From contig JAKOVQ010000033.1 of assembly GCA_029781975.1 (NCBI GenBank), positions 62,001-126,000 on the forward strand: DNA of 64,000 nucleotides, written 5' to 3'. Under the pieces are notes generated by a model. That model worked only from the letters and a program-made list of their open reading frames with translations. It made no database searches and was not told the DNA's origin. Each line of letters opens with the position of its first letter. The first letter of the stretch is position 1. This DNA is from Acidobacteriota bacterium (GTDB taxonomy: Bacteria > Acidobacteriota > Thermoanaerobaculia > UBA5066). Shown here in pieces: positions 48,440 through 60,120 of this stretch. Position numbers and translations under genes: made by a program.

Positions 48440-51400
48440 TCAATAGAGCTTCAGCCCGAAAGCCGAGGTCAGGAACACCGCCATCTCGGCCCGCGTCACC
48501 GGACCGTCGGGGCAGAACTTCCCGCCCCCGCAGCCGGAGGTGATCCCTTCCGCCGCGAGCTCCTCGATGAAGTCTCCCGCCCAGTGGTCGATCGGGACGT
48601 CGGTGAAGATCAGTCCGGTGGAAGCCGGCGGCGCCCAGCCCGCGCCGTGTCTGGCCGCGAGGAGGAAGACGGCCATCTCGGCTCGCGTCATAGGGCTGTC
48701 GGGGCAGAACTTCCCGCCCCCGCAGCCGGAGGTGATCCCCTCCGCAGCGAGCTCCTCGATGAAGTCCCCCGCCCAGAAGTCGATCGGGACGTCGATGAAG
48801 ACCTGTCCCGTGGAAGGCGGCGGGGCCCAGCCCGCGCCGTGCTTGGCCGCGAGGAGGAGAACCGCCATCTCGGCGCGGGTGAGCTGCGTCTCCGGGCAGT
48901 AGCTGGTCGGGCTGCACCCGGCGGTGACACCGGCGTGGAGGATCGTCTCGACGAACCGATAGGCCCAGTGGCTCCTCGGAACGTCGGTGAACGAGTCGCC
49001 GAGGTGGACCGTCCAGGTCGCGACCGCACCGGTGGACAGCGTCTCGGTCACCTGCCCGTCCCAGTGCGTGCTCGGCCGGACGCCGGGGGGGGGCACCTCC
49101 AGCTCGTAGCAGTCTCCCCCACCGGCCCAGCAGTCGCGGGAGGCCCCGGCTCCGAAGGTTCCGAACGAAGCGTTCGCGTCCGCAATGGTGTACGTGCCAC
49201 CCGAGATGCCGACGGGTCCGAAAGAGGACGCGGCGCCGGTGACGGCCGCCGGACCCCCGCTCGGGTTCAGCCAGGTGGGGTTCACCACGACCTGCTCTCC
49301 CGGCTCGAAGACCCCGTTGAGGTCGGAGCCGACGCCGCTCGCGGCATGTGCGTCCACCTCGAGGGCCCCCGGCTGCATCCCCACGACGTTCGTGGTCACG
49401 CTGGCGGAGCTGTTCGCCGGGTTCGGGTCGACCGAGTCACCCGTCACGACGGCGCCATTGGTCATGGACGCGGTTCCGGACGGAAGCACCGTGATGCTGA
49501 CGCCCGACGTGGAGCCGCTGTTGAGGGTCCCGAGGTCGCAGGTGACCGTTCCCGACACGTGCGAACAACCAGAGGAGGCCGACGAGAAGGCGGCGCTCGC
49601 GGGCAGGGTGTCGGTGATGGTCACGAGCCCCGCAGCGGCAGGCCCCAGGTTCTTCGCCGTCAGGGTGTAGGTGAACGGCGCGCCGGCGAGCGCCGGGTTC
49701 CACGCCCCGGCCATCGTGAGCTGGAGATCCGAGCCGCTGCCTGCGGTCGTGGTGACCCAGGTCTGGTCGTTTCCGGGATTGAGGTCGTACTGGGTGCCCG
49801 TGATCGTACCCGCGCTCTGGATCGTTCCCCCTCCGTCGACGGTGACGACGATGGTCTTCTGCGGGAACGTCCCCTTGGCGACCGATCCGAAGCTGCACGT
49901 GACGACGCCGCTCGCGTGGGTACACCCCGTCGAGGCCGACACGAACGAGACGAGGGGAGAGAGCGTGACGGTGGCGCCGACGTTCGTGGCCGTGACGAGC
50001 CCCGAGTTGCTGGCGTAGACCCGGTAGGTCAGCTGGCTGCCGACGGCAACGGGATCGGGAGAGTCGACGATCTGGATCCCGAGATCCACCATGCTCACGG
50101 CGGCGAGGGCGTCGATCCGCCCCCAGCCGAACGTGTTGTTCGGGACCTGGCTCCCGGGCACGCCCCCGCACGTCTCGCCGGTGGTGCGCGGGACCGCGGA
50201 ACGGGCGATGCGGTCCTCGACCAGCCCGACCTGACCCTTCCATTGAGGCATCGCCGACAGGAGCAGGGCGACCTCGCCCGCGACGTGCGGGCCGGCCATG
50301 GAGGTCCCGCTGAACGACGCGTACCCGCCGCCGGGGACGCTGGAGCGGACGCCGACCCCCGGCGCCGAGACGTCGGGCTTGAGGCGGCCCGACCCGTCCA
50401 CGGACACGGGCCCGCGGCTCGAGAACGAGGCGATGGCGTCGCCGGAGTCCGTGGCCCCCACGCTGAACGCGGCGTCGTAGATCGCCGGAGGGTCGCTCAC
50501 CGACCCGCAGCCGGACCCGCTGTTCCCGGCGGAGACGACGACGACGATCCCAGCGGCTCGCGTGTTCTCCACCACGGTCTGCAGCACCAGCGGATCCGTG
50601 CAGCCCTCGCTCGCGGGGCAGCCCCAGGAGTTGCTGATCACGTCGGGCGCCTTCGTCGGGTCGGGATTGAGCCCGGCGAGATCCGTCGGGGCGACGAACC
50701 ACTCGAAGCACTCCGCATACGTCGCCGGCGTGCCGTTCCCCTGGTCCATGTTCCGGCAGCCGATCCACCGGGCCTGGGGCGCCATGCCGATCTGGTTCGA
50801 GGCTCCGTCGTCGCCCACCATCGTCCCCATGGTGTGCGTGCCGTGCGAATCGTCGTCACAGGGCGCCTGGGCGTTGGCCCCGCAGACCCCGCCGCCCGAG
50901 TGGATGGCGTCGTGCCAGCTGTAGTTGTGGTTGGCGGTCGAGCCGTTCCAGCCGCGGTACTTCCCCTTGAGCGCCGGGTGGTCCCACTGGTAGCCGGTGT
51001 CCTGCCCGGCGACGACCACTCCGATCCCCTTGTATCCGAGCGACCAGACGGCCGGGGCCCCCGTCTTGGCGATTCCCCACTCCACGGCCGACGGGGCCTC
51101 GGGCGCCGGGGGAGGGTCGGAAGGGACTCTCTGGAGCTGGACGCTCGGGTTCGCCGAGACGCGCAGGACGTCCGGGCGCTCGGCCATCAGGCGGACGACC
51201 TCGAGGTCGCCGCGAGCCCAGATCATGTTGGCGATCCAGTAGGACCGGACCTCCGCTCCCAGCCCCTTCAGCTCGTCGAGGACGGGAGCCTGTGTCCGGG
51301 CCGCGGTCTCGCGGAGGGTGCGGGAGACGAGCTCGCCCTTCTGCTCCTTGGACACGAGGGAGGCGGCCTCCCGGACGGAAGCCTGCTCCCGGAGAAAGAC

Positions 51401-51559
51401 GAGGAACTCCGTCCTCCCGTTCGTCGATGCCGTCGAGAGGACCCAGGGATCCACCTTGTCCATCCAATCCTGTCCGCGGGCCTCGCCGGACGGGACCCAG
51501 CCGGAGAGGACGAGGCCCACCGCGACGGGTAGGGCCCTGCTCCACTTTCGTCTGCCCAC
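48440..51559 (-). CDS. secreted subtilisin-like (S8) protease with DUF11-type repeats and three SLH domains
   Basis: 1039 residues from the GTG at 51559 (GGGGAGG site before it). Signal peptide to about 29 ('GEARGQ'), an inhibitor-like propeptide, then the catalytic domain with Asp near 187 ('VVAGQDTGYQW'), His near 239 ('DDSHGTHTMGT'), oxyanion Asn ('SAGNSGSG') and Ser near 419 ('FSGTSMAGPHVAG'). Two DUF11-like beta-sandwich repeats follow (about 510-740, each with 'TLSPLVSF' or 'TDTLPASAAF' and a Cys pair), then a module beginning 'GVFEPGEQVVVNPTW', and three SLH domains (about 860-1035). The end reads 'AEMAVFLTSAFGLKLY'. Probably a cell-surface protease held on the wall or outer layer. Confidence 0.92.
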   Translation of the reverse strand: MGRRKWSRALPVAVGLVLSGWVPSGEARGQDWMDKVDPWVLSTASTNGRTEFLVFLREQASVREAASLVSKEQKGELVSRTLRETAARTQAPVLDELKGLGAEVRSYWIANMIWARGDLEVVRLMAERPDVLRVSANPSVQLQRVPSDPPPAPEAPSAVEWGIAKTGAPAVWSLGYKGIGVVVAGQDTGYQWDHPALKGKYRGWNGSTANHNYSWHDAIHSGGGVCGANAQAPCDDDSHGTHTMGTMVGDDGASNQIGMAPQARWIGCRNMDQGNGTPATYAECFEWFVAPTDLAGLNPDPTKAPDVISNSWGCPASEGCTDPLVLQTVVENTRAAGIVVVVSAGNSGSGCGSVSDPPAIYDAAFSVGATDSGDAIASFSSRGPVSVDGSGRLKPDVSAPGVGVRSSVPGGGYASFSGTSMAGPHVAGEVALLLSAMPQWKGQVGLVEDRIARSAVPRTTGETCGGVPGSQVPNNTFGWGRIDALAAVSMVDLGIQIVDSPDPVAVGSQLTYRVYASNSGLVTATNVGATVTLSPLVSFVSASTGCTHASGVVTCSFGSVAKGTFPQKTIVVTVDGGGTIQSAGTITGTQYDLNPGNDQTWVTTTAGSGSDLQLTMAGAWNPALAGAPFTYTLTAKNLGPAAAGLVTITDTLPASAAFSSASSGCSHVSGTVTCDLGTLNSGSTSGVSITVLPSGTASMTNGAVVTGDSVDPNPANSSASVTTNVVGMQPGALEVDAHAASGVGSDLNGVFEPGEQVVVNPTWLNPSGGPAAVTGAASSFGPVGISGGTYTIADANASFGTFGAGASRDCWAGGGDCYELEVPPPGVRPSTHWDGQVTETLSTGAVATWTVHLGDSFTDVPRSHWAYRFVETILHAGVTAGCSPTSYCPETQLTRAEMAVLLLAAKHGAGWAPPPSTGQVFIDVPIDFWAGDFIEELAAEGITSGCGGGKFCPDSPMTRAEMAVFLLAARHGAGWAPPASTGLIFTDVPIDHWAGDFIEELAAEGITSGCGGGKFCPDGPVTRAEMAVFLTSAFGLKLY

Positions 51560-51680
51560 GTGCTCCCCTCCCCGCCAGGCGCGGCGCGCCCGAGCCGCAG
51601 GAGTATAGCGTCCGACCCCGGACGCCGGGCGGCCTCCGGCGCGTCTCACCCGTGAGCAGCCGGGCCGGCCATCACGGGCG

Positions 51681-53552
51681 TCACAGGCACTTGTTCAGCG
51701 TCGGGGTGACCCCTCGGGTCGCGGTCAGCCGCACCCCTCTCGAGGCGGGCGACAGGGGGAACGTGATCGTGAGGGTCATCTGGTCCTTCTCGACGACTCC
51801 GCTGTAGAACGCCTTCTCGGCCGGGAACCCTCCGACGGGAGTCGGTCCCCCTTCGAAGGCGAAGGTCCCTTCCCCGTTGAATCGGCCCTGCGCGTCCAGG
51901 AAGACCGGTCCCGAGATGCTCCCGTGCGAACAGTCGGTCTCGATGCTGACGCCGGCCGCGTCCACCCAGATCCTGACGCCTGCGTCCCCCCAGGCCCCCT
52001 CGGGCAAGGCGGCCGGGGCTCCCGAGAAGACGACCGGGATGAAGCTGCCGTCTCCGGTCCCCAGGCCGGGTGCCGCGCCGTCGTTGACGATTCCATAGGC
52101 GGACCAGGCACCGTCGCCGCCGATGCGCACGACCCGGACGTAGCCGTCCGCGGCCCCGGAGCTCGCGAAGAACCCGCCCGGCTGAGCCCACTGTCCGGGC
52201 TCGAGACCCACGGTGAGCGGCGCTCCCGCGGGACGCCCCGAGGCGCCGTCGAAAGCCTGGAGCTGCAGGGTGACCGGTTCCCCGGGGGGCGCGCTCGCGT
52301 TGAGGACGGCGACGTTGGACCGGGCCCGGGCGTCCGCCCTCAGGCCCCACAGGAAGCCCTGGGCGGCACCTGCGGCGCCGGAGGGCACGGCCGATGCGAA
52401 GACGCCGAAGCGGCCCCTCGCCTGCCGCGTGAGGACGCGAACGCCCACGAACGCCCCGTGGGCCTGCTCCTCGAGGGCCTGCACGCGGAGAGTCCCGGCC
52501 GAGGTTTCCGTCCCGCCGGCGGACGGCCCGGCCCCGAGCAGCTCGAAGGCGTCGGGAACGATGACCTGGCGGTGGGCTGGGACGGGGACCGTGGCAGAGA
52601 GCGGCGCCCCCGAACGAGAGATCGAGTCGGAGTATTCGAGGGCGAAGGTGGCGTCCGTGGCTCCCGGGTTCGCCAGGATCAGCTCGCTCCGATACGAAGG
52701 AGAGTCGACGAGCACCGGGATCGTCCAGGAGGTCCGGAGGTCGCCCTCGGCGACCGCCGGGATGAACGAGCCGTCGTTCGTGTCGTTGTCGTTGACGACG
52801 CCATAGGCGCCGAAGAAGCCGCCCGACGAGACTCTCTCGATCAGGACGTAGCCCTGATCGATTGCCGGAGTCCCGCTGGACGGAATCGTGAACTGCTTCC
52901 ACCCGTACCCCGGGAGGGCCTCCTTGGCAGAGAGGACGACCTGCCCGTCGCTCGAGCCGGACACGAGCGTGACCTTCACCGACACCGGCTCGGCTCCCGG
53001 GTTGTAGATGGCGACGTTCGAGCGGTCGAGGGCGCTCGTGCGCAGGCCGAAAACCGTGGCTCGCGCCGTGAATCCCTCGTCGGCGGGAACGGCCGGGAAC
53101 GAGACCCCCGCGCTGCCCGGCGCGGAGGGCGGCAGGGTCGGTGACGTGATCCTCGCCGTGACCCCGACCGGGCCCTCCCCCGGGTTCAGCCGGCAGATCC
53201 GCAGGGTCCCCCCCTGCGGCGTGTCGGGCGTGGTCCGGGGAATCCCGATCCCGAGCTGCCTGAGGAACTCGATGCCGTCGGCGGCGAGGAGCTGCTGCCC
53301 CGCGGGCACGCTGAACTGGCCGTCCCCCGTCCCTTCGGCGCTCCCCAGCGACGCCGTGTAGTGGACGGCCATCTCCTGGGCGTCGGGGTTCGGGTTGGCG
53401 AAGGAGATCTCCGTCCGGTACCGGGTGCCCGAAGCCTCCACGTCCAGGACGACGGGGAGGAGCTGGCAGGCGTCCTCGGGCTTCGCCCCGGCCACGGGCC
53501 CGTTCATGGCAACGGCAAACCCCAGCGCCACCAAGGTCGCGCTCTTTCGCAT
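51681..53552 (-). CDS. secreted protein with two tandem beta-rich repeats, function unknown
   Basis: 623 residues, excellent GGAGGAGGT site. Signal peptide 1-23 ('LVALGFAVAMNGPVAGAK'). The mature protein contains a duplicated unit of about 220 residues: each starts with 'VVLDVEASGTRYRTEISFANP' or 'PVLVDSPSYRSELILANPG' and ends with 'GAYGVVNDNDTNDGSFIPAV' or 'AYGIVNDGAAPGLGTGDGSF'. Between them are beta-strand pairs with 'RSNVAIYNPG' / 'RSNVAVLNAS'. A third C-terminal section ('WVDAAGVSIETDCSHGSISGP', then 'FNGEGTFAFEGG') looks different and has a Cys near the very end. No enzyme motif. It lies between the two SLH proteases, in one direction with them. Confidence 0.82.
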   Translation of the reverse strand: MRKSATLVALGFAVAMNGPVAGAKPEDACQLLPVVLDVEASGTRYRTEISFANPNPDAQEMAVHYTASLGSAEGTGDGQFSVPAGQQLLAADGIEFLRQLGIGIPRTTPDTPQGGTLRICRLNPGEGPVGVTARITSPTLPPSAPGSAGVSFPAVPADEGFTARATVFGLRTSALDRSNVAIYNPGAEPVSVKVTLVSGSSDGQVVLSAKEALPGYGWKQFTIPSSGTPAIDQGYVLIERVSSGGFFGAYGVVNDNDTNDGSFIPAVAEGDLRTSWTIPVLVDSPSYRSELILANPGATDATFALEYSDSISRSGAPLSATVPVPAHRQVIVPDAFELLGAGPSAGGTETSAGTLRVQALEEQAHGAFVGVRVLTRQARGRFGVFASAVPSGAAGAAQGFLWGLRADARARSNVAVLNASAPPGEPVTLQLQAFDGASGRPAGAPLTVGLEPGQWAQPGGFFASSGAADGYVRVVRIGGDGAWSAYGIVNDGAAPGLGTGDGSFIPVVFSGAPAALPEGAWGDAGVRIWVDAAGVSIETDCSHGSISGPVFLDAQGRFNGEGTFAFEGGPTPVGGFPAEKAFYSGVVEKDQMTLTITFPLSPASRGVRLTATRGVTPTLNKCL

Positions 53553-53647: not shown

Positions 53648-56600
53648 CTAGTGCAGGACGAGGCCGAACGTCAAGGTCAGGAAGACGGCCATCTCGGCCC
53701 GGGTCACCGGGCTGTCCGGACAGTACCTGCCCGCCCCGCAGCCGCCGGTGATCCCCTCGGCCGCCAGGGCCTCGATGAAGGCCCCGGCCCAGTGACCGGC
53801 AGGGACGTCGCCGAAGACCGTGCCGGACGGCGGCGGAGGGACCCACCCGGGACCGTGCTCGGCAACGAGGAGGAAGACGGCCATCTCCGCCCGGGTGATC
53901 GGGCTGTCCGGGCAGTAGACGTTCGGGCCGCATCCCCCGGTGATCCCTTCGGCGAAGAGCGTCTCGATGAAGTCTCCGGCCCAGTGATCGGCGGGGACGT
54001 CCGAGAAGACGCCTCCGGTCGAAGGCGGGGGCACGTAGGCCGGGCCGTGCTCCGCCATCACGAGCAGGACGGCCATCTCCGCGCGGGACAGCGGCCTGGC
54101 GGGGCAATAGGCGGCCGCACCGCATCCCGACGTGACGCCCCGGTGGAAGATCGTCTCGACGAACCGGTAGGCCCAGTGATCCGGGGGCACGTCGGTGAAG
54201 CTGCGGCCGACGTGGACCGTCCAGACGTTCGAGGCGCCCGTGGTGAGGTTCTCGGCGAAGGAGAGGTCCCAGTGAGCGGCAGGCCGGGTCGCCGGGTCGC
54301 CCACGCCGAGGGCGTACGAATCGGCCGAGGTCGTCCCGTCGGCACCCGCGGCGATCGTCCCGTAGGCAGCCGTGGCGTCGAGGAGGGCGTAGATCGCGCC
54401 GCCGGGACCCGTCAGGGCGCTCGCCGTTCCGCTCGCCGAGATGTCGGCCGGCGAGCCGTTGTGCCAGGTCGGGGAGATCCGGACCTCCTCCCCCGGCTCG
54501 AGGACGCCGTTGGCGTTCGAGGACCCAGGCGCGAAGGGCTCCGCGTCGGTCGTCAGCCTGCCGGGCGCCAGCCCGGGGATCCCCGCCGTGCAGGCGCCGG
54601 GGGTCTGGACGTTCGTGACCGCCAGGTCGTCTATCCACCAGGTCTCGCCCGTCGCGGTCCCGTCGGTCGAGACGCGGAACCTCAGCCTCACCGTGGAGCC
54701 CGCGTAGCTCGCGAGGCTCGCCGTGAACCGGGTCCAGATCGTGCTGATCCCCGTGAAGTACCTGCCGGCCGGGAGGCTGCAGGCGTCTCCCGTCGCGGTG
54801 GACATCGCGGGGTACGCCAGGGCGAGCCGCGCCCAGGACGATCCGCCGTCGGTGCTGATCTCGACCTGCCCCTTGTCTCCGCCCGAGATGTCGAGGAACC
54901 ACTTCGACCAGAAGGTGAGCTCCGAGCCGCTGCCGATCAGGAGGGGCGGCGACGTGAGCGCGCCGCATGTGTTGTTGGCGGCGACGGTCCTGTAGGTCTT
55001 CGCGCCGGAGTGCCCGCCGCCGGAGTCGACGGTCCACGGCGCCCCGGCGGTCATGGCCGCGCCGCCGGTGTCGCCGGCGTCGTCGCTCCAGGTCGCCGAC
55101 GAGATGGGCCCGGTCGGCGTGGCCGAGCGAACGACGACGTTCCGGTCCTCGGCGCCGTTGCTCGTGTCGACGGCACGGACCACGTAGTAGGCCTTCGCCC
55201 CCGGTGGCAGACCGTTCGAGTCGGCGAAGCCGAGGCCGGTGACCCCGGTGGCGATGGCGTTGGAAGGTCCCGGGACGAACGACGGGTCCGCTCCCCGGTA
55301 GACGTTGTAGCTGACCGGCCCCGCGCAGAGCGGGGTTGCCGCGCCCCAGGCGACGTTGACCGTACAGACCGGCACCGCCCCGTTCCCGGCGCTGGCGACC
55401 CCCGCGAACTCCGGGTACTCCTGGCAGCTCCCGGTGGTCGAGGCCGCCGCGCACGTGCTCTCGGCGGTGACGCAGGCGCCCCGCTTCGCCCGGACGCGGT
55501 AGGCGTAGGTCACCCCGCCGGAGACGTTCGTGTCGATCCACGAGGTCGACGCCGTCGTGGCGACCAGCGCGAAGGTGCCGGCGTCGCACCCCCCGCGGCC
55601 GCGCAGGACCTCGTACTCGAGGCCGGCCCCGCCGCTCGACCAGCTCACGGTGATCCGATTGGCCCCCGACCCCGCCGCCGCGACGCCCGCCGGGACCGGC
55701 GGGAAGGCGCCTCCGCCGCACAGGGGAGACGCGAGGTGGGCAGCGGTCGCGACGATCGCCTTCACCGCCCCGGCGTAGAAGGCGCCGCTCCCGCAGTTGG
55801 CCAGCGTGTCGTTGGAGGTGTGGTAGTAGGGGTAGCTGCCGGCCTGTCCGCACGACCCCTCGTTGTCGGTGATCGCGCAGACCGCCGACCAGCCGCGATC
55901 CCAGAACGGCGCGTGATCGCTGTAGACCATCGACGCGCAGGGGAACGGCTTGACCACGCACCCGGTGCCGTAGGCCGTCGCGGCCTGCTGCATCAGCGTC
56001 CCCAGCCACGCGGACGCGGCGTTCGTGTTGACGTCGAGGTCCTCTCCGGCAGCCGGCAGGCCGTCTCCCTGCCAGCCGGTCATGTCGGCGTCGAGGACCG
56101 CGAGGACCTGCTCCCCGGAGGCCGCGGCCTGGGCCGCGTAGTACTCCGAGCCGTAGAGGCCCTGCTCCTCGCCCGTCACGGCGATGAACCTCACGGTGCT
56201 CTCGAAGGTGTACCCGGCCATCGCCCGGGCCGCCGAGACCACCGTCGCCGCGCCGCTGGCGTTGTCGTCGGCCCCGGGGGCCAGGCCGCTCGACGGCATG
56301 TCGTCGATGTGGCCGATGACGATGATCACCCTCTCGGGGTGCGTGTACCCCGTGATCGTGCCGATCACGTTCGGCGCGTGCGTGGCATGGTGGACCTGCT
56401 TGACCGGGTTCAGCCCGAGCGACTGGAACTCCCCGTAGACGAGGTCGGTCGCCGTCAGGCAGCCCGCCGACGTCGAGTACCGGGTCGTCGCCGAGCCCAC
56501 GATCTCCTCCCAGCCCGCCTGGATCGTCGCGGGGGAAAGGCCGTCGACGATGAGCTGCACGAGGGGGTTGACGTCGATGGCGGGCACGCCCTCCCGTTGC

Positions 56601-57073
56601 CACGACCCGTACGGCTCCGGAAGGGGCTCGTTCAGCCGGAGCGGCCTCATCGCCAGCCTTCGGAGGTGCCACCCGCTCGACTCCGCGCAGGGTGCCGTCA
56701 GGTCGCCCGCCGTCCGCAGCAGCGCCCACGAGCCGTCGACCAGGACCGGCTCGCCGCAGGAGACGAGGTCGGCCGCGCTGGCGCCCGGCCGGAGGCCGAC
56801 CGCGAAGTACGTGAAGCCGAGCGAATCGGGATCGACGACGGTTCCCGTTTGGCCGAGCGCCTCGAGCCGCTCCCGGATCAGCGCCGGCTCGCCCAGCGCC
56901 AGGAAGAGGTCCTCGCGCTCCAGGACGAGGTCGACGCCGGCCCGGATCAGGGCCTCGCGGTCCTCGGGTCCTTTCCGCTCGACGCGGACGAGGGCCGGCC
57001 GCTCGGCCCGGGCGAGAGGGGCCAGGAGGAGGGTGCTGGCAACGAGGAAGCCAACCAGCCGGGTCAGGGTCAT
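53648..57073 (-). CDS. secreted M28-family aminopeptidase with fibronectin-III-like and SLH domains
   Basis: 1141 residues, GGAGG site. Signal peptide 1-23. The M28 catalytic domain (about 180-440) has the zinc-binding His/Asp in 'VIGHIDDMPSSGLAPGADDNAS' region (about 253-275), Glu-Glu in 'AVTGEEQGLYGSEYY' (about 298-312), Asp in 'LDADMTGW' (about 325) and His in 'YSDHAPFWDRG' (about 383). Two fibronectin-like units follow (about 455-680), a concanavalin/MAM-like section ('SELTFWSKWFLDISGGDKGQ', about 720-820), the 'GVLEPGEEVRISPTW' module, and three SLH domains (about 958-1138) ending 'TLTFGLVLH'. It probably trims peptides at the cell surface. Confidence 0.92.
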   Translation of the reverse strand: MTLTRLVGFLVASTLLLAPLARAERPALVRVERKGPEDREALIRAGVDLVLEREDLFLALGEPALIRERLEALGQTGTVVDPDSLGFTYFAVGLRPGASAADLVSCGEPVLVDGSWALLRTAGDLTAPCAESSGWHLRRLAMRPLRLNEPLPEPYGSWQREGVPAIDVNPLVQLIVDGLSPATIQAGWEEIVGSATTRYSTSAGCLTATDLVYGEFQSLGLNPVKQVHHATHAPNVIGTITGYTHPERVIIVIGHIDDMPSSGLAPGADDNASGAATVVSAARAMAGYTFESTVRFIAVTGEEQGLYGSEYYAAQAAASGEQVLAVLDADMTGWQGDGLPAAGEDLDVNTNAASAWLGTLMQQAATAYGTGCVVKPFPCASMVYSDHAPFWDRGWSAVCAITDNEGSCGQAGSYPYYHTSNDTLANCGSGAFYAGAVKAIVATAAHLASPLCGGGAFPPVPAGVAAAGSGANRITVSWSSGGAGLEYEVLRGRGGCDAGTFALVATTASTSWIDTNVSGGVTYAYRVRAKRGACVTAESTCAAASTTGSCQEYPEFAGVASAGNGAVPVCTVNVAWGAATPLCAGPVSYNVYRGADPSFVPGPSNAIATGVTGLGFADSNGLPPGAKAYYVVRAVDTSNGAEDRNVVVRSATPTGPISSATWSDDAGDTGGAAMTAGAPWTVDSGGGHSGAKTYRTVAANNTCGALTSPPLLIGSGSELTFWSKWFLDISGGDKGQVEISTDGGSSWARLALAYPAMSTATGDACSLPAGRYFTGISTIWTRFTASLASYAGSTVRLRFRVSTDGTATGETWWIDDLAVTNVQTPGACTAGIPGLAPGRLTTDAEPFAPGSSNANGVLEPGEEVRISPTWHNGSPADISASGTASALTGPGGAIYALLDATAAYGTIAAGADGTTSADSYALGVGDPATRPAAHWDLSFAENLTTGASNVWTVHVGRSFTDVPPDHWAYRFVETIFHRGVTSGCGAAAYCPARPLSRAEMAVLLVMAEHGPAYVPPPSTGGVFSDVPADHWAGDFIETLFAEGITGGCGPNVYCPDSPITRAEMAVFLLVAEHGPGWVPPPPSGTVFGDVPAGHWAGAFIEALAAEGITGGCGAGRYCPDSPVTRAEMAVFLTLTFGLVLH

Positions 57074-57744: not shown

Positions 57745-60120
57745 ATGACGGGTCCCTTCGTCCTCCTGCTCGCGCCCCTCAGCCTCCTGGCGCTCGCGGC
57801 CCCCGCGTATCTCCTGGGCCGTACCCTTCTCGGCCGCTTCCGGTTCGACGGCGGCGCAGAGCGGATCGCCCTCTCGACGACGCTCGGTCTCGGGGTGCTC
57901 TCGCACCTCCTTCTCCTCCTCGGCCTTCTGCACCTCCTGCGAACGGGGGCGATCCTCGCGCTCCTCGCTGCCGTCACCGCAGGCTCGATGGCCTGGCTAC
58001 GGCGGGGCGGCGATCGCGGCCCGCGGCCGGCCGTTCCTCCTGACCGGCCGGGCTCGGGCGGCGCGGGCCCACCCTGGTGGAGGGGTCGGCCGGCTCGCCA
58101 CCTTCTCCTCGTCGGGGCACTCGTGGCCGCATTCGCGCCCTACGTCCTGATCCCGTTCTACCCCCCGACGGCCTTCGACGCGACGAGCTTTCACCTCGCC
58201 GCGGCGAAGGAGTTCGCGCGGCAGGGGGCCGTCGTCGCCGTCCCCAACCTCAGGTTCCCCGTCTACACGTTCGGCGTGCACGTGCTCTACGCCGCGTTCC
58301 TGGAGCTCGGGAGCGACCTCGCGCCGGCGCTCCTCTCGGCGCTCGCCTCGATGCTCGTCGCGCTGCTCCTGTTCGGATGGGGCCGCTCGGCAGGGGACTC
58401 CCGCACGGGCCTGGCGGCCGCCCTGCTGTGGCTCTCGAGCCCGATCGTCCTGCAGGGTTCGACGATCCCCTACCTCGACGTCGTGCTGACCCTCTTCGTG
58501 ACCGCCGCCGCGTACTCCTTCTGGCGCTGGCACCGGGACGGCTCCCTCCCGGCGCTCGCCGCCTGCGGAGCCCTCGCCGGCTTCGCCTGCAGCGTGAAGT
58601 ACACGGGTCTCTTCACGGTCGCGACCCTCGGGCTCCTCCTTCTCGCCGCGGCCACGCGTCGTCGGAAGGCCGGGCTCCTGGTCGCGGTCTTCGGCGCGGG
58701 CGTCCTCGCCGCGGGAGCCCCGTGGTACGTCCGCAGCGCGCTCCTCACCGGGAACCCGACCTGGCCGTTCCTCTCGAGCCTCTTCGGCATCGGCCCGTAC
58801 TGGAACGCCCGGGACCTCGCGGGACTCTGGGCCGACCTCAGGACCGCGGGGATGGGCCACGACCTGAAGGCGTTCCTGCTCCTTCCGTGGAACCTCCTGG
58901 TCCACGGGGAGAGCTTCTACGCGTCGAGCACCACCGACCTCTCCCGGGCCGTCCCCCTGGTCCTTCCGCTCGTTGTCGTGGGAGGAGCGACGCTGGCCTC
59001 GGGCTGGGTCGTCGCGGTCCTCCTCGCGTCGCTCGTCACGTCGTGGTTCCTCGGCTCCCAGGTCCTCCGGTACCTGCTTCCCGCCCTCCCCGTCTACTGC
59101 CTCCTCGCCGCCTGCGGCTTCGCGAGGCTCCTGAGGTCGCCCGCGCTTCGAAGCCGCTCGCGCGTGACCGGGGTCGTCTGCGCCGTCCTCGCGGCCGCTC
59201 TTTCCTTCCGCGTGGGCGTCACCGGATGGAGCCAGCTCCGGCGGTGGGGCCCGCCGCCGCTGTCGGCCACGGGTCGTGACGCCTTCCTCGAGCGCAGCCT
59301 CCCGGAATACCGGGCCCTCCGCGCCGCTCCTCCGGGAGGGGGTGCCGTCTACTCGCTCTTCGGAGCGAACCTCGCCTACTACTCGCGCGCCGCCTTCGTG
59401 GGCGACTGGTTCGGACCATGGCCCTACCGCACCGTCCTGGCCGCGACGAGGAGCGGGGGCCGCGCCCTCCACGCCCTCCTGACGGCCTGGGGCTGCGAGT
59501 ACCTCCACGTCGCGAGGAACCGCATGTTCTCGCAGGCGAAGGCAGCCCTTCCGGACGACGAGGAATTCGGGCGCCTCTTCCGGCTCGTCTCCGCGAGCGG
59601 CCGGGGAGAGCTCTACCAGCTCCGGAAGACCGGGCAGGCGCTGCCGCCGGACATCCAGCTCCTGCGGAACCCCGGCTTCGAGGAGGCGGACGGCGCCGGG
59701 CGAAGAGCGCCGTGGGCCGTCTTCGGCTCGCCCCGCTTCGACTCGACCGGCAAAGAGTCCCGGTCGGGGAAGGCCGCCGTCCTGGTGGACAGGACGGACA
59801 CGGTCTACCAGGTGGTCGCGGTCGAGCCGGACAAGGTCTACCGGCTGCGGATGTTCGCCCGGGGCTCCTCCGGGCCCGGCGCGTCGGTCCGCCTCCAGGT
59901 GAACTGGGTGGACGCGGGCGGTGCCACCGCAGGCCATTTCCTGCAACCCGTGACGCTCACCGAAGGCTGGGTCGAGCTCGTCGCGACCTGCAGGGCTCCG
60001 AGCACCGCAAGGCGTGCCGCCGTGTTCGGGGCCTGTCACGACCGATGCGGCGCCGGGGTGTGGCTCGACGACCTCACCCTCTCCGAGATCCAGGAGGCGC
60101 CGCACGTCCCGGTGCCGTGA
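57745..60120 (+). CDS. GT39/ArnT-like membrane glycosyltransferase with C-terminal carbohydrate-binding-type domain
   Basis: 791 residues. About 12 transmembrane helices fill residues 1-480. The first periplasmic loop carries 'PFYPPTAFDATSFHLAAAKEF' (about 137-157), whose Asp corresponds to the catalytic Asp of GT-C enzymes that use polyprenyl-phosphate sugars. 'WLSSPIVLQGSTIPYLDVVL' and 'GFACSVKYTGLF' are typical of the family. After a soluble segment (about 490-640) a jelly-roll domain follows ('LLRNPGFEEADG', 'VYQVVAVEPDKVYRLRMFARG', 'AGVWLDDLTLSEI', about 645-785), resembling CBM4/9-type domains. Sugar and acceptor unknown; the GT2 at 30649 could supply a lipid-linked sugar. Confidence 0.82.
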   Translation: MTGPFVLLLAPLSLLALAAPAYLLGRTLLGRFRFDGGAERIALSTTLGLGVLSHLLLLLGLLHLLRTGAILALLAAVTAGSMAWLRRGGDRGPRPAVPPDRPGSGGAGPPWWRGRPARHLLLVGALVAAFAPYVLIPFYPPTAFDATSFHLAAAKEFARQGAVVAVPNLRFPVYTFGVHVLYAAFLELGSDLAPALLSALASMLVALLLFGWGRSAGDSRTGLAAALLWLSSPIVLQGSTIPYLDVVLTLFVTAAAYSFWRWHRDGSLPALAACGALAGFACSVKYTGLFTVATLGLLLLAAATRRRKAGLLVAVFGAGVLAAGAPWYVRSALLTGNPTWPFLSSLFGIGPYWNARDLAGLWADLRTAGMGHDLKAFLLLPWNLLVHGESFYASSTTDLSRAVPLVLPLVVVGGATLASGWVVAVLLASLVTSWFLGSQVLRYLLPALPVYCLLAACGFARLLRSPALRSRSRVTGVVCAVLAAALSFRVGVTGWSQLRRWGPPPLSATGRDAFLERSLPEYRALRAAPPGGGAVYSLFGANLAYYSRAAFVGDWFGPWPYRTVLAATRSGGRALHALLTAWGCEYLHVARNRMFSQAKAALPDDEEFGRLFRLVSASGRGELYQLRKTGQALPPDIQLLRNPGFEEADGAGRRAPWAVFGSPRFDSTGKESRSGKAAVLVDRTDTVYQVVAVEPDKVYRLRMFARGSSGPGASVRLQVNWVDAGGATAGHFLQPVTLTEGWVELVATCRAPSTARRAAVFGACHDRCGAGVWLDDLTLSEIQEAPHVPVP

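Follow-up and report, generated by a model that had tools for sequence, protein, structure and literature searches.

In Paenibacillus alvei, the gene csaB lies among genes for proteins with S-layer homology (SLH) domains, and the coupling of csaB with SLH proteins is known from that species and from Bacillus (PMC6801904). In a second account, Trp13, Gly29 and Arg43 are given as ligand residues of SLH domains (PMC6081394), and in a third the SLH domains of SlpA and OmpM bind peptidoglycan from the periplasm (PMC9388160). This report concerns a 64,000-nucleotide stretch of an Acidobacteriota genome of the class Thermoanaerobaculia (contig JAKOVQ010000033.1, positions 62,001 to 126,000; hereafter the window), in which two secreted proteases, of families M28 and S8, share their C-terminal part. 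Judged from sequence, these proteases of a soil-type bacterium, mutually unrelated, end in a common putative anchor, a beta-sandwich domain followed by three SLH repeats. The shared unit is probably a cell-envelope anchoring cassette, in which an immunoglobulin-like (Ig-like) domain of ~125 residues precedes an SLH triad that would dock onto a pyruvylated polymer.

The last 312 residues of the S8 protein and the last 306 of the M28 protein align without a large gap. The SLH parts are identical at 129 of 184 positions (70%), with a score of 714 against a shuffle maximum of 66. The pre-SLH sections are identical at 53 of 120 (44%), with a local score of 252 and a BLASTP E of 1e-27, whereas 1000 shuffles gave a mean of 38.8 and a maximum of 73. 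An earlier, sequence-only reading of the window had proposed that the pre-SLH section and the three SLH domains are both common to the two proteases, and these scores bear it out; chance similarity of the two C-termini was rejected, the alignment scores standing far over the shuffles. All the motif pairs it quoted are present (FEPGEQVVVNPTW/LEPGEEVRISPTW, THWD/AHWD and TWTVHLGDSFTDVP/VWTVHVGRSFTDVP), but its description of a Cys/Tyr-rich middle fits the S8 copy only, the corresponding stretch of M28 being devoid of Cys. The regions N-terminal to the unit score 61, equal to the shuffle mean of 61; the catalytic parts are therefore unrelated, and the two hosts were rightly called unrelated proteases.

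The M28 gene lies exactly where that reading placed it, at 53648..57073 on the minus strand, and the S8 gene (48440..51649, minus strand) is two genes away, ~2 kb apart from it with a single open frame (51681-53531) between. The 1141-residue M28 protein consists of a signal-peptide-like N-terminus (recognised by eye), the M28 domain (PF04389, 5e-34; 118.1 bits against a cut-off of 21.3, which places it in Peptidase M28), a MAM-like domain, the pre-SLH Ig-like domain (54203..54568, minus strand; 122 residues, no Cys) and the SLH triad (53651..54202, minus strand; repeats 54008-54202, 53816-54007 and 53651-53815), matched by PF00395 in three stretches. The 1069-residue S8 protein matches PF00082 (3e-43; 148.5 bits against a cut-off of 21.8, which makes it a Peptidase S8 member), PF01345 and PF00395, its Asp, His and Ser motifs being recognised by eye only. 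Its order is the S8 domain, two DUF11 stretches, the pre-SLH Ig-like domain (48995..49378, minus strand; 128 residues, one Cys pair) and the SLH triad (48443..48994, minus strand; repeats 48800-48994, 48608-48799 and 48443-48607). PF00395 exceeds its curated cut-off in all three repeats of each protease.

The AlphaFold2 model of the S8 unit has a pLDDT of 92.5 and a pTM of 0.88. Foldseek gave 3pyw, 6bt4 and 6cwh as the best matches of its SLH part (3pyw at E 4e-8, TMt 0.80); the matches are SLH crystal structures of Sap and SpaA, several with pyruvylated N-acetylmannosamine (ManNAc) bound. The triad is predicted by this model to adopt the trimeric, three-lobed spindle fold. The pre-domain modelled alone (pLDDT 91.7) is predicted to be a nine-strand Ig-like beta-sandwich; its fold search returned many generic Ig-like domains (best Z 10.9, rmsd 2.5 over 101 residues) and no close relative clear of these. 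Membership of the pre-SLH domain in a Pfam or NCBIfam family was rejected, since none of 21 members scanned passed a curated cut-off (the lowest E values, each from a single member, were 0.033 in Pfam and 0.0038 in NCBIfam). The ligand residues are strongly kept: computed over 180 SLH repeats, Arg43 is present in 179 and Gly29 in 176, and all six repeats of the window carry Trp13, Gly29 and Arg43. A pair of Cys occurs together in 155 of the 180 repeats, is wholly missing in 22 and is half present in 3, and this co-occurrence suggests a disulfide.

Within its own genome, PF00395 matches only three proteins, all on contig C6. The third SLH protein (L009:4919-10195, minus strand; 1758 residues), ~19-24 kb beyond the window end, combines CarboxypepD_reg with SLH; a different section precedes its SLH part, and the pre-SLH domain search of the genome gave no match in it. 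That search, which the sequence-only reading had proposed, found the domain in the two window proteins and otherwise only as a weak match at C38:224931 (E 0.0145). Other proteins with the module were found further afield, and, the pre-SLH sections aligning significantly as well, the outcome that the reading had named as its refutation did not arise. Of 148 genomes of the window's class, 23 have a pre-SLH domain match at E<=1e-8, with up to 13 copies per genome, and an evenly drawn sample of the phylum, other classes included, gave matches in 17 of 396 genomes. A wide scan with two short peptide patterns only, over a database in which 84,980 species are represented by a single genome each, found 20 loci, of which 19 are titled Acidobacteria/Acidobacteriota, Holophagae or Thermoanaerobaculia(-ceae) and one "uncultured bacterium", company that also points to Thermoanaerobaculia as the class of the window; its organisms overlap with the 148 class genomes, and the sets are therefore not independent.

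The order of the parts is nearly fixed. Among 69 module frames, counted after the duplicate frame L070|-|1|648 (same gene as L090) was dropped and with one of 11 matches of genome G207 entering trees and counts, 60 carry exactly three SLH repeats, which begin 2-3 residues past the module. Six more are cut by a contig or frame end, and the remaining three are weak matches (~33 bits) with no SLH. The partners are diverse: 61 N-terminal parts, cut to their last 850 residues and with 25 of 50 families listed, include S8 (9), M28 (3), M14 (2), GSDH (2), LRR (2), GH44 (1), M12B (1) and others. In the divergent cassettes L119 and L120 (genomes G018 and G017, no CsaB match), the unit sits inside a long open frame that runs on for at least 300 residues beyond the SLH triad. 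Among the titles and abstract openings listed for open-licence PMC papers on SLH in Acidobacteria, conversion, pyruvyl transferase and domain shuffling, none describes the cassette.

Orthologues computed to be free of the cassette indicate how it moves. In G117, the S8 orthologue (71% identity across 572 residues) has FG-GAP-like repeats, recognised by eye, at its end. The M28 orthologues of G097, G101 and G102 (47-49% identical) can be aligned with the 835-residue part before the cassette as far as residue 828-831; beyond it they have other tails, short ones in G101 and G102. For neither protease does the match to a cassette-free orthologue cross the cassette boundary, which is good support for fusion or swapping, and the comparison supports a portable C-terminal unit that would have fused to unrelated proteins. 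The 18-row S8 tree has its cassette-bearing rows in two places, separated by cassette-free ones, and gain or loss therefore happened more than once. The S8 frame of G132 has SLH and no pre-domain match. The M28 tails of L159 and L160 (G101 and G102) carry FESGDTSAWS or FESGSTAAWS, and the end of L158 (G097) is similar; this tail is perhaps another C-terminal signal. The other tails of orthologous secreted proteases, such as the FG-GAP-like repeats, resemble the cassette in being interchangeable at a similar position, but their sequences are unrelated to it.

The two parts of the cassette differ in history, and the view of a single module of ~300 residues fails on this point. Three SLH-less weak matches were left out of the trees, which hold 66 pre-domain rows, 60 of them with SLH tails of at least 180 residues. 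Over 60 complete cassettes, identity within and between genomes is 0.441 and 0.402 for the pre-domain, and 0.578 and 0.421 for the SLH triad; the difference of these differences is 0.118, against a maximum of 0.041 in 1000 shuffles. A neighbour from its own genome is the nearest one for 33 of 50 triads and for 10 of 50 pre-domains; label shuffles give a mean of ~5.5, with maxima of 14 and 12, respectively. Homogenisation within genomes thus affects the triad independently of the pre-domain, and the cassette is therefore no single block. The comparison within and between genomes that had been suggested at the outset yielded conversion tracts in two other genomes and none in the window pair. In neighbouring genes of G121, DNA identity is 0.4-0.7 up to the first SLH residue and 0.98-1.0 from there on, and in the G098 pair high identity begins at residue 22 of the triad; unless misassembled, these computed tracts are recent conversion. 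The effect is uneven: the triads are scarcely more alike than the pre-domains in G099 (0.46 vs 0.44) and G115 (0.45 vs 0.42), and slightly more alike in G131 (0.44 vs 0.37).

One might suppose that local tandem duplication or recent gene conversion also made the window cassettes alike, as the genes are 2 kb apart, their SLH parts are 70% identical against 44% in the pre-domains, and adjacent cassette pairs in other genomes show conversion. The window pair, however, has an SLH DNA identity of 0.72 (third positions 0.57), which is no higher than that to the cassettes of another genome (0.70-0.74; third positions 0.51-0.58), and at the level of the SLH parts the values are 0.70 to each other and 0.69-0.73 to those of another genome. 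The pre-domains are also placed apart in the tree, that of M28 grouping with copies of G115 and G114 (on M28 and other cassettes, in a different family) with support 100/94. A recent duplication or conversion of the pair was rejected on these grounds, and we regard local origin as very improbable. Of the earlier proposal that the unit spread by duplication and fusion, fusion to unrelated proteins is supported, and recent local duplication of this pair is not. In the S8 protein, SLH repeats 2 and 3 (48443-48799) are nearly identical in sequence, which suggests exchange within the gene. More speculatively, the triad may be a lineage-specific "address": recombination starting from the pre-domain/SLH junction would homogenise the triads and so re-address captured enzymes to the polymer of the host, while the pre-domain keeps an older history. 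We put this forward tentatively and would not yet expect it to hold.

The expected ligand pathway lies nearby. The single CsaB match of the genome (C6:134632-135612, minus strand; 225.7 bits against a cut-off of 213.1) is found 8.6 kb beyond the window end, between the protease pair and the third SLH protein. The gene (L010:7834-9672, minus strand, equal to C6:133834-135672) encodes 612 residues, with PF04230 at residues 32-334 and a long C-terminal extension past this domain that looks coiled-coil-like by eye. Its neighbours encode a UDP-GlcNAc 2-epimerase (PF02350), glycosyltransferases and a DegT aminotransferase; UDP-ManNAc in Paenibacillus alvei reportedly comes from the epimerase MnaA. 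Co-occurrence was computed across the class: at E<=1e-20 for both, a CsaB-like gene is present in 16 of 16 genomes with a strong cassette and in 11 of 132 others (Fisher 1e-14, kinship ignored), the 16 of 16 leaving out seven class genomes with a cassette E between 1e-20 and 1e-8. Outside the class, all three cassette genomes tested have a CsaB-like gene, and none of three genomes with SLH-less weak matches does. Linkage was computed as well: at least 12 of 18 genomes, where 2.5 are expected, have csaB no more than 25 kb from an SLH gene (P ~1e-7), both this distance and the set of 12 having been fixed after the data were viewed. A compact island is seen in G113 (L161, G113:C57), where ~11 kb contain csaB, an S8 gene with the cassette and a relative of the gene for the third SLH protein.

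These data fit a simple scheme. The proteases would be exported by Sec signal peptides, as judged by eye, and their SLH triads would dock non-covalently on a ketal-pyruvylated, probably ManNAc-containing envelope polymer. Its synthesis would fall to a glycan locus on the contig of the proteases, with csaB, the UDP-GlcNAc 2-epimerase and glycosyltransferases. Docking would keep the protease at the envelope, and the Ig-like domain would act as a spacer. Many secreted proteins would acquire, lose and exchange cassettes at their C-termini, and recombination, which can set in at the pre-domain/SLH junction, would keep the triads within a genome similar. We infer the polymer chemistry, the binding by SLH and the location, outside or periplasmic. 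An anchor on many enzymes of related bacteria, near csaB, looks like a reusable envelope fastening.

Several observations weigh against docking on a pyruvylated polymer at the cell surface. Many cassettes of other genomes have no Trp13 in repeats 2 and 3. When the cassette cut-off is relaxed to E<=1e-8, 18 of 23 genomes have a CsaB-like gene at E<=1e-20 and 5 do not. The curated CsaB cut-off is passed in no more than 2 of the 148 genomes, so that the genes of the others are CsaB-like. The Fisher p-value takes no account of phylogeny. G017 and G018, whose divergent cassette has three SLH, show no CsaB match at E<=0.001, and 6 of 29 SLH genomes are likewise without one. The genome also contains LpxC, which makes an outer membrane likely, and anchoring may then be outside or periplasmic.

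The genomes that have SLH or the cassette and no CsaB match suit a different account, in which the triad binds peptidoglycan or another pyruvate-free polymer and csaB is linked to it through the general clustering of surface-glycan genes; csaB does stand here within a general glycosyltransferase region. We think this unlikely, given the near-invariant Arg43, the co-occurrence and linkage of csaB with cassette and SLH genes, and the coupling in P. alvei and Bacillus cited above. LpxC, together with the periplasmic peptidoglycan binding cited above for SlpA and OmpM, lends more weight to the idea of a diderm-type cell in which the triad is periplasmic and fastens the protein to peptidoglycan, like that of Deinococcus SlpA, without surface display. 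This is a real possibility, though we lean away from it: Pfam scans of 22 whole cassette proteins showed no outer-membrane barrel family, nor did that of both window proteins show an outer-membrane beta-barrel family, and the partners include enzymes that degrade polysaccharide and protein, substrates that would normally be outside. Of the portable cell-surface targeting unit first envisaged, portability and a likely anchoring role stand; with LpxC present, targeting may be to the surface or to the periplasm.

How the island arrived is a matter separate from, and compatible with, anchoring by the cassette. We slightly favour horizontal transfer of the whole island (S8, M28, csaB and the third SLH protein) from a relative in family f17. 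In trees, csaB pairs with G121 of f17 (support 100/100) and S8 falls within an f17 clade (99/97); the best matches of M28 and of the third SLH protein are also in f17, while uvrA, ~4 kb away, is closest to its own family (78-85%). Within family f1, the cassette together with csaB occurs only in G000 and G142. G142, however, although of the same family, has a different csaB, ~6 kb from uvrA, and an old island with replacement and loss is therefore possible. The trees also have few rows; that of csaB holds 12 of 13, the csaB of G207 not being recovered.

As to the remaining genes, the frame between the two proteases (51681..53531, minus strand) encodes a secreted-looking protein (by eye) of 616 residues with zero Pfam matches at E 0.001. 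A PMT_2-type membrane glycosyltransferase adjoins the M28 gene (57745..60120, plus strand) and is possibly part of a surface-glycan region running past the window end to csaB.

A reusable envelope-anchoring cassette is thus indicated in Acidobacteriota that carry lipid A genes. The pre-SLH domain, without a Pfam or NCBIfam family, serves as its marker, and the nearby csaB leads to a predicted ligand pathway. The case also offers domain-level concerted evolution that can be tested from sequence data alone. Compared with SlpA and OmpM of diderm bacteria, which also have an SLH domain in a bacterium with an outer membrane, the arrangement differs: there, an N-terminal SLH is followed by a coiled coil and a beta-barrel, and here a C-terminal triad is carried by enzymes. 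Cel5I of Ruminiclostridium and the LysBT1 endolysin likewise unite a catalytic domain and an SLH anchor in one protein, but they come from a different phylum, and the available parts of their descriptions mention neither a shared pre-SLH domain nor homogenisation within genomes. The Gram-positive triads of SpaA, SlhA and Sap are alike in their three tandem SLH, the predicted fold, Trp13, Gly29 and Arg43, and csaB in the region. The window-type repeats differ from them in carrying a co-varying Cys pair, and here an Ig-like domain precedes the triad, on secreted enzymes of a bacterium that bears a lipid A gene. The principle is known SLH anchoring; the variant with an Ig-like pre-domain, in an LpxC-bearing lineage of Acidobacteriota, is new.

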